Positions 49,961 through 54,079 of a stretch of 64,000 bases of DNA are shown here, piece by piece. The notes beneath the pieces are model-generated. The model had not been told where the DNA came from. It saw nothing but the letters and a program-made list of their open reading frames with translations, and made no database searches. How positions within the stretch are numbered: the stretch's first letter is position 1; every line of letters begins with the position of its first letter. The stretch comes from Thiohalophilus sp. (lineage in GTDB: Bacteria; Pseudomonadota; Gammaproteobacteria; UBA6429; Thiohalophilaceae), in the NCBI RefSeq assembly GCF_034522235.1, contig NZ_JAXHLN010000003.1, forward strand, positions 682,001-746,000, given 5' to 3'. The position numbers and the translations under genes were made by a program.

Positions 49961-50971
49961 TTGGACAAACGTTTACAACAACTCGAACAATGGCTGATGA
50001 CGCTGGGCTATCGTGATTATCAGCTTGAACCGGCCTCGGCCGATGCCAGTTTTCGGCGCTACTTCCGGATTCGTCACGCCGGCGCCAGTTTTATCGTGAT
50101 GGACGCGCCGCCGGAACAGGAGGATACCGGGTCGTTTATCCGCGTGGCAGAGCTGCTTGCCGAGGCCGGTCTGCATGTCCCGCAGATTCAGGCGCGGGAT
50201 ACCGGGCAGGGTTTTTTGCAGTTAAGCGACCTGGGCAGCCGGCTCTATCTTTCGGTTCTGGATACGCAGTGTGTCGAGCCGTTGTACGCCGATGCCCTGG
50301 CCGCGTTGTTGCGTTTGCAGCAGCATTCCGCGCCTGACTGGTTGCCCGATTATGATCGGCCGTTGCTGTTACAGGAGATGCAGCTGTTTGCTGACTGGTA
50401 TCTGCGACGCCATCTCGGGCTTGAACTGGAGGTGCAACAGCAGAGCGTTTTACAGGAGAGCTTTGAGCACCTGGCCCGTGTTGCGCTGGAACAGCCTCAG
50501 GTGATCGTGCACCGTGATTATCATTCCCGCAATCTGCTATTGAGTGAGCCCAATCCCGGGGTGATCGATTTCCAGGACGCGGTCGTCGGCCCGGTCACCT
50601 ACGATCCGGTCTCCTTGCTGCGCGATTGCTACATCGCCTGGCCACGGGCGCAGGTCGAACAGTGGCTGCGGGATTATCATCGCCAGGCACAGCAGGCCGG
50701 GATTGTTGAGCAAGGCATCGACGCAGGGCAGTTTCAGCGCTGGTTTGATCTGATGGGGGTGCAGCGGCATCTCAAGGCCAGCGGTATTTTCGCCCGGCTC
50801 AACTACCGCGACGCCAAGCCCGGCTACCTGGCGGACATTCCCCGGACCCTCGGTTATGTGCTGGAGGTAGTCGCGGATTATCCCGAGCTGGCGGTATTCG
50901 CCGATCTGTTGCACGCGCTGGCGATTCCGCAACGGCTGGCGCAAATGGCGCCGCGGGGCGTGTCGGCATGA
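49961..50971 (+). CDS. amgK: N-acetylmuramate/N-acetylglucosamine kinase
   Basis: AmgK phosphorylates MurNAc and GlcNAc at C1 in peptidoglycan sugar recycling. The 336 residues belong to the aminoglycoside phosphotransferase family: [38 protein letters not shown] (catalytic Asp and Asn) and [18 protein letters not shown] at 49961 fits the homologues' length; ATG at 49997 is possible. It overlaps murU by 4 bp (ATGA). Confidence 0.92.
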
Positions 50972-51630
50972 AGGCGATGATTCTGGCGGCCGGCCGTGGT
51001 GAGCGCATGCGACCGCTGACCGACCACTGCCCCAAGCCCTTGTTGCAGGTCGGCGGCAAGACGTTGATCGAATACCACGTCGAGGCACTGGCCGCCGCCG
51101 GGATCACCGGGATCGTCATAAACCATGCCTGGCTGGGCGCGCAGATCGAGACCGCCCTGGGGGACGGCCAACGCTACGGCGTGCGCCTGGACTACTCGCC
51201 GGAGCCTGCGGCGTTGGAGACTGCCGGCGGCATTGTTCAGGCGCTGCCGCGACTGGGGGAAACCTTTGTGGTGATCAACGCCGATATCTGGAGCGACTAC
51301 CCTTTCGCCCGCTTACCCGAGGCCCCCGCCGGTCTGGCCCACCTGGTGATGGTCGACAACCCGGCGCACCACCCGCGGGGTGATTTCGTCCTGCAGGGGG
51401 ATCGGCTTGACGAGCAGGGTGAGCCGCGCCTGACTTTCAGCGGCATCGGGGTGTATCGCGCCGAACTGTTCGCCGGTCTGGCGCCGGGCATGCGACCGCT
51501 GGGACCGTTGTTGCGCCAGGCCATGCAGGCGGGCAAGGTGAGTGGCGAGCATTATCGGGGACAGTGGTGGGATATCGGCACCCCGCAACGGCTGGCGCAA
51601 TTGAACGCGCAACTGACGGGCAACGGATAA
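50968..51630 (+). CDS. murU: N-acetylmuramate alpha-1-phosphate uridylyltransferase
   Basis: MurU makes UDP-MurNAc from the AmgK product, bypassing de novo synthesis. The 220 residues show the nucleotidyltransferase signature [37 protein letters not shown] and VINADIWSD with the metal-binding Asp. It forms a recycling pair with amgK; the next gene starts 6 bp after its stop. Confidence 0.93.
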
Positions 51631-51636
51631 TCGCGC

Positions 51637-53070
51637 ATGGGTGAAGAGATACAAAACAGCCAGTTCGATGCGCAGGATTACGTTCGTTTCGAACAGCGTC
51701 TGCAGCAGGAAACCGCGTTGCTCAAAAGCTGGGTGCAGGAAGGGCGGCTGGCGGCGACCGAGCCGCAGGGAGGCTTTGAGCTGGAAGCCTGGTTGATTGA
51801 CGAGGCGTTGCGGCCGCTGCCGATCAACGAAGCCTTTCTCAAGCGACTGGATACGGATCTGGCCTCGCCGGAGCTGGCCAGTTTCAACTTCGAGGTCAAC
51901 AGCACCCCGCGGCGGCTGCACGGATCGGTATTCTCCGCCATGCACCGGGAGTTGACCCAGACCTGGCACCATTGCCAACAGACCGCCGCCGCGCTGGATG
52001 CCGGGGTCATCATGATCGGCATTCTGCCAACGGTGGAAAACGATTCCCTGACCCTGGCCAACATGTCGGGTATGCAGCGCTATCGCGCCCTCAACCGGGA
52101 AGTGGTGCGCATGCGTCACGGCAAGCCGCTGGTGCTCGATATCAATGGCGAAGAGCACCTGCGGGTGACTCATCGCGATGTGATGCTCGAATCCGTTGCC
52201 ACCTCGTTTCAGATCCACCTGAAGCTGACCCCGCAAAACGCGGTGCCGCTGTTCAATGCCAGTATTATATTGGCCGGGCCCATGGTGGCGCTGAGCGCCA
52301 ACTCCCCGTTTTTATTTGGCAAGAACCTGTGGGCCGAGACCCGTATTCCGGTGTTTGAACAGGCGGTGGCGGTCGGCGGCTATGATGCCGCCCGTTTCGG
52401 TCCCATTCGCCGGGTTACCTTCGGCGACGGTTATGTGCAACAGTCGCTGCTGGAATGTTTCGAGGACAACCTGGCCCATTATCCGATCATGCTGCCGGTG
52501 GATCTGGGCGAGGATCCCGAGCGGCTGGCGCATCTGCGCATGCACAACGGTACCATCTGGCGCTGGAACCGTCCGCTGATCGGCTTCGATGAGGACGGTC
52601 GGCCGCATCTGCGGGTGGAGCACCGGGTGGTGCCCGCCGGCCCGACCTTAATTGATACCATCGCCAACGCGGCGTTTTATTACGGCGCCGTGACCGCGCT
52701 GGCCAACATGCCGATGCCGCCGCGGCGCCGCCTGGCGTTCGACAAGGCGCGGGACAATTTTTATGCCGCGGCCCGCTTCGGGTTACGCGCCCGGCAACAG
52801 TGGTTCGACGGGGCGCAGTTGTCGGTCAGCGAACTGTTAAAAAAAGTGTTGTTGCCCATGGCCAAAGAGGGACTGGCGCAGCTGGGGGTGGTCGGGGCCG
52901 ACAGTCAGATGTACCTGGATATCATCGCGCAACGGGTGGCCAGCGGCCGTAGCGGCGCTCAATGGCAACGCGACTATGTCAAACAGCACGGCCGGGACAT
53001 GCATGCGCTGACCGCCGCCTATCTGGAACGTCAACAACAGGGGGATCCGGTGCATGAATGGAGCGTCTGA
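51637..53070 (+). CDS. GCS2-like carboxylate-amine ligase (COG2170)
   Basis: The 477-residue protein belongs to the glutamate-cysteine-ligase-like GCS2 group, which forms ATP-dependent amide bonds. The metal/ATP motif GGFELEAWLID is near residue 50, with VDLGEDPERLAHLRMHNGT and the basic MPPRRRLAFDKARDNFY later. The substrate is not known; glutathione synthesis is one option, but the length and the M14 partner suggest a specialised product. It starts 6 bp after murU and overlaps the next gene by 17 bp. Confidence 0.85.
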   Translation: MGEEIQNSQFDAQDYVRFEQRLQQETALLKSWVQEGRLAATEPQGGFELEAWLIDEALRPLPINEAFLKRLDTDLASPELASFNFEVNSTPRRLHGSVFSAMHRELTQTWHHCQQTAAALDAGVIMIGILPTVENDSLTLANMSGMQRYRALNREVVRMRHGKPLVLDINGEEHLRVTHRDVMLESVATSFQIHLKLTPQNAVPLFNASIILAGPMVALSANSPFLFGKNLWAETRIPVFEQAVAVGGYDAARFGPIRRVTFGDGYVQQSLLECFEDNLAHYPIMLPVDLGEDPERLAHLRMHNGTIWRWNRPLIGFDEDGRPHLRVEHRVVPAGPTLIDTIANAAFYYGAVTALANMPMPPRRRLAFDKARDNFYAAARFGLRARQQWFDGAQLSVSELLKKVLLPMAKEGLAQLGVVGADSQMYLDIIAQRVASGRSGAQWQRDYVKQHGRDMHALTAAYLERQQQGDPVHEWSV

Positions 53071-54079
53071 CAGCGCATTGACACTACTGAATCAGCTGCC
53101 GCCGGGACTGCTCGATCTGCCCGCCGAGCGCCTGCACGAGAAACTGTCGGGACCGACCCTGATTGAACTGCCGGGCAGCGATCCCCGACCGCTGTTTATT
53201 TCGGTATTACTGCATGGCAATGAGACCACCGGCTGGGACGCCATGCGCGCGGTATTGAAAAAGTACCCCCGCTTGCCGCGCACGCTGTATCTGTTGATCG
53301 GCAATGTCAGCGCGGCGGCCCGGCGGCAGCGGCATCTGCCGCACCAGGCGGACTATAACCGTATCTGGAAAGGTGATGGCGACGGCCCCGAATATGCCAT
53401 GGCCCGGCAGTTGTTACGCTGGCTGGAACAGCGCCCCCTGTTTGCCGCGATTGATATTCATAACAACACCGGCACCAATCCGCACTATGCCTGTATCAAC
53501 CGGCTTAACGATGATTATCTGCATCTGGCCACGCTGTTCAGCCGGACCGTGGTCTATTTTCTTAAACCCGACGGGGTATTGTCTCTGGCCCTGTCACGCC
53601 TGTGTCCGGCGGTGACGCTCGAATGCGGCAAACCCGATGATGCACACGGCGTGACCCATGTGATCGAGTATGTGGAAGCGGCACTGCATCTGTCGGCATT
53701 TCCCGAGCATGAGGTAGCCGCGCAGGATGTGGATCTGTTTCATACGGTGGCGGTCGTCAAGGTGCCCGAACAGCTCACTATCGGCGTGGACGATCCCCGG
53801 GCGGATATCGATCTGAGTTCGGCGATCGATCATTATAATTTCAGTGAATTGCCGGTCGACACCTGTTTTGGCCGTTATCGCCATGGCGGCGATACCGCGC
53901 TGGAGGCACGGGATGAGCTGGGCAACGAGGTCAGTGGCCGTTATTTTGCGTTACGCGACGGTCAAATCTACACCCGTGCGCCGGTCATGCCCTCGATGCT
54001 GACCCTGGATATCGGGATTATTCGCCAGGATTGTCTCTGTTATCTGATGGAGCGCCTGCCGTTGCCGACGGGCGAGTAA
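53054..54079 (+). CDS. M14-family carboxypeptidase/aspartoacylase-like protein
   Basis: The 341-residue protein has the zinc site of M14/succinylglutamate desuccinylase-like enzymes: LLHGNETTGWDAM (His and Glu ligands, near residue 60), FAAIDIHNNTGTNPHYA (third His) and VTLECGKPDD with the likely catalytic Glu near residue 195. It overlaps the GCS2-like ligase by 17 bp, so the two are surely coupled. It could trim or undo the ligase product; this is inference. Confidence 0.85.
   Translation: MNGASDSALTLLNQLPPGLLDLPAERLHEKLSGPTLIELPGSDPRPLFISVLLHGNETTGWDAMRAVLKKYPRLPRTLYLLIGNVSAAARRQRHLPHQADYNRIWKGDGDGPEYAMARQLLRWLEQRPLFAAIDIHNNTGTNPHYACINRLNDDYLHLATLFSRTVVYFLKPDGVLSLALSRLCPAVTLECGKPDDAHGVTHVIEYVEAALHLSAFPEHEVAAQDVDLFHTVAVVKVPEQLTIGVDDPRADIDLSSAIDHYNFSELPVDTCFGRYRHGGDTALEARDELGNEVSGRYFALRDGQIYTRAPVMPSMLTLDIGIIRQDCLCYLMERLPLPTGE

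Follow-up and report, generated by a model that had tools for sequence, protein, structure and literature searches.

Trypanothione synthetase-amidase is a single chain of two domains, which makes and hydrolyses one and the same amide (PMC2784880). Genomic neighbourhoods of carboxylate-amine ligases have been described as well, and in the accessible part of PMC2588565 they are other than the one considered here. AmgK and MurU are already known enzymes (PMC5371407). In a stretch of 64,000 nucleotides from Thiohalophilus sp. (contig NZ_JAXHLN010000003.1, positions 682,001 to 746,000; further called the window), the genes of the latter two enzymes are directly followed by genes coding for a GCS2-like carboxylate-amine ligase (LIG) and a zinc amidohydrolase of the AstE/AspA type (M14). 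A literature search for a GCS2-like ligase together with an AstE/AspA hydrolase found no paper, from which absence from print is not claimed. Our present results describe LIG and M14 as the real unit of this locus: the two genes are co-inherited, adjacent and sometimes fused. We propose, with a probability of about one half, that they form a self-contained two-enzyme module making and breaking an amide of glutamyl type.

The run consists of four genes:

49961-50971, + strand: amgK, anomeric kinase of N-acetylmuramic acid (MurNAc) and N-acetylglucosamine (GlcNAc), APH fold; TTG start; PF01636, best NCBIfam match NF045759
50968-51630, + strand: murU, MurNAc-1-phosphate uridylyltransferase; NF045761
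51637-53070, + strand: LIG, GCS2-like carboxylate-amine ligase, 477 amino acids; PF04107, invariant residues, predicted fold
53054-54079, + strand: M14, AstE/AspA-type zinc amidohydrolase, 341 amino acids; PF24827, invariant residues, predicted fold

Coordinates and profile matches agree on the tight run that the preliminary description of the window had pointed out: amgK and murU overlap by 4 bp, murU and LIG are separated by 6 bp, and LIG overlaps M14 by 17 bp.

LIG and M14 across genomes

Among 144 related genomes, LIG and M14 occur together in 70 and are both missing from 71; LIG only is present in two genomes and M14 only in one (Fisher p 2.5e-37, kinship ignored). For this count, M14 matches of at most 51 bits, which were the sole matches in 10 of the 81 genomes with an M14 match, were regarded as paralogues and dropped, as were three extra LIG fragments (one in G037, two in G124). 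LIG adjoins M14 in 66 of the 72 genomes possessing it, and two of the six exceptions (G023, G031) are situated at the end of a contig. In G058 the genes are separated, LIG standing by murU and M14 by elyC. Nine of the 72 genomes carry LIG and M14 in one open reading frame of 807 to 839 codons. Genus g13 accounts for eight of them, which is every genome sampled from it, and the ninth, G048, belongs to another family; both Pfam domains are present in the translation of the fused frame of locus L119. Over 72 loci, pairwise distances of LIG correlate with those of M14 (r 0.85). Of the 32 ligases from Actinobacteria and Acidobacteriota, six entered the LIG tree and this distance comparison. The association is far beyond chance, and LIG followed by M14 also recurs in other phyla. 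Co-occurrence, adjacency and fusion support the idea, raised in the preliminary description, that an enzyme forming amides with ATP and one cleaving them act here as a unit. The fused form can be likened to trypanothione/glutathionylspermidine synthetase-amidase, where synthesis and hydrolysis are opposed within one chain, with the difference that the substrate of the latter is known. In G028, an in-frame TAG is located in a conserved stretch of M14 (L164, 7885-7887); the frame continues behind it, and a fault of the draft genome is possible.

A second sample was formed by 50 LIG loci in named genomes: seven from Gammaproteobacteria, 11 others with M14, 24 actinobacterial and eight acidobacterial. 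The closest named genome is that of Thiohalophilus thiocyanatoxydans, with LIG 92% identical to that of the window. LIG is followed by M14 at all seven gammaproteobacterial loci (in L034 with an open reading frame in between) and at all 11 loci from Magnetococcales, Alphaproteobacteria, Bdellovibrio, Planctomycetota and Leptospiraceae, where the spacing reaches up to about 280 bp and the M14 frame of L039 is split in two. A LIG match is present in 18 of 191 genomes of Bdellovibrionota, and M14 stands beside LIG at 13 of 18 places, once on the opposite strand (a 69-residue match of G244 was dropped and G349 was counted twice). In the case of the deep-branching LIGs of L086 and L158, M14 lies directly downstream and is 25-27% identical to M14 of the window. 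Acidobacteriota possess a distant ligase clade with a C-terminal CBS pair, and a different AstE/AspA hydrolase is encoded directly upstream in five of the eight loci, ligase and hydrolase both having been profile-tested in L077. The acidobacterial loci are the same ligase-hydrolase partnership with another hydrolase subfamily. As a pair that several phyla retain and that is fused in two lineages or more, LIG and M14 probably serve a real, unnamed reaction. In 15 of the 24 actinobacterial ligase loci (L050-L065, L068-L073, L079, L080) a conserved TetR-like gene, recognised from its sequence, is present, directly or nearly directly downstream of the ligase in the rows seen.

Families, conserved residues and predicted folds

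LIG matches PF04107 (GCS2) with 33.9 bits against a gathering threshold of 21, the match spanning residues 189-243 only. Residues E48, E50, E79, E86, Q192, H194, R236, E328 and R330 are invariant in 26 aligned LIG proteins. Judged by the carboxylate-amine ligase definition of PMC2588565, they fit the superfamily motifs, bar one missing aspartate. GhExE on strand 1 is present as G46-F-E48-L-E50, with G46, E48 and E50 invariant in the 26 rows; the acidic residues on strands 2 and 3 are invariant E79 and E86; [HDQ]x[NH] on strand 4 is invariant Q192-x-H194; and the two conserved arginines near strand 5 correspond to invariant R236 and R312, as assigned by alignment. The missing residue belongs to Ex[RK]x2D on strand 6. 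Because this aspartate is absent, LIG lies outside the strict superfamily definition and is termed GCS2-like, by its fold and the other motifs. The spacings of its conserved residues presumably match those of the residues that bind metal and glutamate in the glutamate-cysteine ligase of yeast.

Predicted models of LIG and M14 were compared with known structures by VIA-align. The AlphaFold model of LIG (predicted local distance difference test score, pLDDT, 93) aligns with YbdK of Salmonella and E. coli (Z 38.2 and 37.7, root-mean-square deviation (rmsd) 2.3 and 2.4, 344 and 348 residues aligned) and with yeast glutamate-cysteine ligase containing Mg and Glu (Z 29.6, rmsd 2.8, 463 residues aligned). 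By this predicted model, LIG has the glutamine synthetase/gamma-glutamylcysteine synthetase fold. Sequence and profile searches of PDB chains gave no match of LIG, even at E 10 with the profile. With YbdK/GCS2 ligases and the eukaryotic-type glutamate-cysteine ligase it shares the predicted fold, GhExE, the acidic strand residues, QxH and ExR. It differs from YbdK/GCS2 ligases in the missing Asp of Ex[RK]x2D and in being partnered, in most of the lineages sampled other than Actinobacteria, with an AstE/AspA hydrolase.

M14 matches PF24827 (AstE_AspA_cat) with 31.7 bits (gathering threshold 25). Its residues H54, E57, N102, R103, H136 and E190 are invariant in 18 aligned rows, one of them clipped by a contig end, and comprise the HxxE, NR, H and E of the AstE/AspA type. 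AstE (Z 21.1, rmsd 4.0, 279 residues) can be superposed on the whole length of the predicted M14 model (pLDDT 93), and so can aspartoacylase (Z 19.7, rmsd 3.3, 259 residues); a further match is CphZ, the cyanophycin dipeptide hydrolase (Z 16.7, rmsd 4.4, 266 residues). With two peptidases of the cell wall, Csd4 (Z 16.8, rmsd 2.6, 181 residues) and MpaA (Z 14.6, rmsd 3.3, 186 residues), the match is confined to the catalytic domain. M14 thus has catalytic residues and whole-length architecture in common with AstE and aspartoacylase, and differs from them in that identity in the structural matches is at most 19% and that its partner gene is a ligase. In both partners, the active-site residues are intact and the predicted folds are those expected. 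The folds of trypanothione synthetase-amidase are unrelated to those of LIG and M14.

LIG could be regarded as the gamma-glutamylcysteine synthetase of glutathione synthesis, since it is the sole PF04107 match in its genome and has the fold of YbdK and glutamate-cysteine ligase. A full-length GshA (PF08886, 625 bits) is nevertheless encoded next to GshB (PF02955, 258 bits) elsewhere in the same genome, which rules LIG out as the only glutathione enzyme and makes the assignment extremely improbable. The preliminary description had named two findings that would speak against its view of the pairing, LIG as the sole gamma-glutamylcysteine synthetase and an unconserved gene order; GshA is separate and the order is conserved.

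Another locus of the same genome (L173, G000:C3:568500-579500; 4826-7289) contains rimB-rimK and, 4 bp away, a gene for an AstE/AspA paralogue, 29% identical to M14 of the window over 185 residues. RimK is a glutamate ligase, and this run is like LIG-M14 in that a ligase gene adjoins the gene for an AstE/AspA hydrolase; RimK differs from LIG in being of the ATP-grasp type and not of the glutamine synthetase fold. An AstE/AspA hydrolase thus accompanies each of two ligases of unrelated kind in this genome, which, with RimK using glutamate, favours glutamate as the acid of LIG. The RimK parallel also fits modification of proteins, in which LIG would add glutamate to a protein and M14 would remove it, in the manner of RimK or pupylation systems; PafA and Dop are included in the fold superfamily of LIG (Z about 15-20 in the structural comparison). 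No conserved tag-like open reading frame was noted beside the pair among frames of at least 80 amino acids, and characterised members of the AstE/AspA type, to which M14 belongs, act on small molecules. We therefore consider protein modification very improbable.

Proposed reactions and the place of cell-wall recycling

In the proposed module, LIG would use ATP to phosphorylate a carboxylate, with the gamma-carboxylate of glutamate as the likeliest candidate, and would couple it to the amino group of an amino acid or small amine. M14 would hydrolyse the same amide or its close relative and so set the amine free. A reversible cytoplasmic conjugate of glutamyl type would result, perhaps formed when energy is sufficient and taken apart when it is short. 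We infer both the direction of each reaction and the action of LIG and M14 on the same compound. CBS domains on the acidobacterial ligase or before LIG in L145 are a hint of adenylate control: the CBS pair is fused to the ligase in L067, L075, L077, L081 and L084 (profile-tested in L077, the others by alignment, L084 by eye), and a stand-alone CBS protein (L145, 8621-9001) is encoded 12 bp upstream of LIG-M14. A further, doubtful extension is that LIG-M14 would be an undescribed metabolic switch spanning phyla, which would cycle a glutamyl conjugate (perhaps of a murein-derived amino acid in murU-linked Gammaproteobacteria) under energy-charge gating by CBS domains, the conjugate being a new class of stored or signalling metabolite. 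The pair, its fused form and a version lacking adjacent murU can be directly expressed and assayed, which makes this orphan amide chemistry testable.

Several observations weigh against a self-contained glutamyl module. At 25 murU-linked loci, the LIG-M14 distances correlate with r 0.48 and the LIG-MurU distances with r 0.55. G107 has LIG without M14 and G132 has M14 without LIG, so neither gene strictly needs the other. LIG lacks an adjoining M14 at five of the 18 places in Bdellovibrionota, and all 24 actinobacterial loci are without this M14, in a search blind to distant AstE/AspA proteins and with L072 ending 215 bp past LIG. In the motif Ex[RK]x2D, E328 and R330 of LIG are invariant, whereas the D position is occupied by P, S or A. 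The preference of LIG for glutamate would follow from conserved residues, fold and the parallel with RimK. Finally, an S9 peptidase-type gene recurs near LIG, and the module may have a further partner.

The S9 gene (cluster c21, seven loci) is the one neighbour found to span three lineages. It adjoins the pair in L043 (10729-13248, gap 36), L048 (5970-7988, gap 12) and L102 (9669-11630, gap 191), its identity having been profile-tested in the former two, and lies a few genes upstream of the pair in four alphaproteobacterial loci (L038-L040, L042). At loci without murU, 39 co-directional neighbours are located within 150 bp, 34 of which were scanned with Pfam (30 and four). Eight of the 30 are without a Pfam family and the rest are varied, often housekeeping genes; examples are uvrD, aspS, folD, pyruvate dehydrogenase E1, acetyl-CoA hydrolase, two S9 peptidases, a PF00144 protein and a CBS protein. 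No third gene that adjoins the pair throughout was found by these scans or by flank clustering, which covered the named loci with 14 actinobacterial rows outside the inspected output.

These neighbours bear on a sequential salvage pathway, where M14 would act first, on an N-acyl or isopeptide compound, and LIG would ligate the amino acid thus freed to another partner, with no opposition of the two reactions. Fusion in nine of 72 genomes fits such channelling equally well as opposition, AstE, DoeB and CphZ, relatives of the AstE/AspA type with roles in salvage, are among the structural matches of M14, and the S9 gene in three lineages fits salvage of peptides. On the other hand, most lineages keep no third gene next to the pair, the locus of the window has no S9 gene, and sequential salvage appears quite improbable to us. 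In one Bdellovibrio genome, a class IV aminotransferase gene (L041, 5211-6164) overlaps the M14 gene by 8 bp; no such overlap occurs at the other Bdellovibrionota places read.

The neighbourhood of amgK-murU invites a different explanation, a dedicated role in cell-wall recycling, where a peptide or an amino acid from murein turnover would be joined by LIG and trimmed by M14, feeding the uridine diphosphate-MurNAc of AmgK-MurU. Within 600 bp of LIG and on the same strand, murU is found in 45 of the 72 LIG genomes, with one more case hidden by a broken contig (G037), and 19 of the 45 come from 19 different families outside that of the window. In G075 (L094), the gene flanking the pair is amgK instead of murU and lies on the opposite strand; in G132, where LIG was not found in the genome, M14 stands beside murU. 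All five genomes of genera g11 and g18, forming one clade with 99% support, have a run of mpl, two genes (which we take to be ubiX and a gene with the Lon substrate domain), LIG and M14. An L,D-transpeptidase-like gene lies downstream in some relatives, a gene for the exo-muramidase NamZ (L151, 6068-7291) is divergent from LIG in one genome of Bdellovibrionota, and a PF00144 beta-lactamase-family gene is located 31 bp upstream of LIG in another (L147). The genome of the window contains AnmK. MurU above cut-off is also commoner with LIG (68 of 72 genomes) than without it (41 of 72; p 1.3e-7 over the 144 genomes, kinship ignored).

Those 41 genomes nevertheless have MurU and no LIG, and neither adjacency of murU nor presence of MurU is constant in LIG genomes. 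On the LIG tree, murU linkage changes 11 times against a shuffled mean of 23.4, at least four of the changes being forced by starred branches; the linkage is thus clustered, and several times lost or regained. M14 is retained at most loci without murU, at 21 of the 24 where MurU is encoded elsewhere or absent and at three of the rest. The mpl case is one event in one clade, with two genes in between, and the genome of the window keeps its own Mpl above cut-off, so that LIG does not replace Mpl and is ruled out as its stand-in. M14 matches MpaA and Csd4, as described above, across the catalytic domain only. In other phyla, the pair occurs without adjoining murU and often with housekeeping neighbours: murU is beside LIG at none of the 11 non-gammaproteobacterial LIG-M14 loci and none of the 18 Bdellovibrionota places. 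None of those 11 genomes has MurU above cut-off, a cut-off that none of 14 control genomes including Caulobacter passes either, so distant forms are possible. Caulobacter itself has a MurU. Among 21 genomes behind the named loci, MurU above cut-off is present in three, which are the three gammaproteobacterial ones searched.

The tie of the pair to MurNAc recycling is therefore partial and, in the form given in the preliminary description, not supported; a dedicated recycling role is, in our opinion, unlikely. In our reading, the link to murU is real but local, and recycling of cell-wall sugars is a lineage-specific neighbour of the LIG-M14 module and not its core, because the pair occurs in other phyla away from amgK-murU and its neighbours vary. 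The amgK-murU operon points to envelope metabolism as the setting in Gammaproteobacteria, without being required for the module, and suggests the first place to look there.

Surroundings of the run

AmgK was identified by PF01636 (APH, 119.8 bits in a Pfam profile search) and by NF045759, its best NCBIfam match, which is nearly full length, scores 304 bits, below the strict cut-off of 550, and belongs to a gene adjoining murU. In the list of open reading frames, the frame of amgK begins at 49874; the TTG at 49961 was taken as the start. MurU reaches 327.4 bits with NF045761, exceeding the curated cut-off of 250. On the left, genes which we take to be lptD, surA, pdxA and ksgA lie on the opposite strand; on the right, elyC is the best NCBIfam match of the next gene, below the cut-off of that model, and is followed presumably by lipA, lipB, a D-amino-acid aminotransferase gene, dacA and rlpA, the genes of both flanks other than elyC being recognised from sequence with no profile.

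In some relatives, M14 is followed by a gene for a TPR protein and usually also by one for an L,D-transpeptidase-like protein (L121, 4463-6929; also L093, L119, L120, L162 and L164). Both proteins contain a Cds6_C domain in L121, the locus tested. A membrane protein similar to heparan-glucosaminide N-acetyltransferase is encoded between lptD and amgK (L121, 11274-12017; also L090, L093, L119 and L120) and belongs to family PF07786, as tested in L121.

Between the M14 gene and elyC, an AT-rich palindrome of about 80 bp is located (window 54141-54220). It is a dispersed repeat with at least 78 matches, both strands counted, in at least 40 distinct places including its own, and its other copies are mostly 75-86% identical (40 of 107 first-look candidates scored). 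A terminator scan found two terminators against a shuffled mean of 4.2, and neither it nor a promoter scan was informative. Above their Rfam thresholds, the window also contains a 6S RNA gene (10338-10520, - strand) and a glycine riboswitch (20671-20758, + strand).

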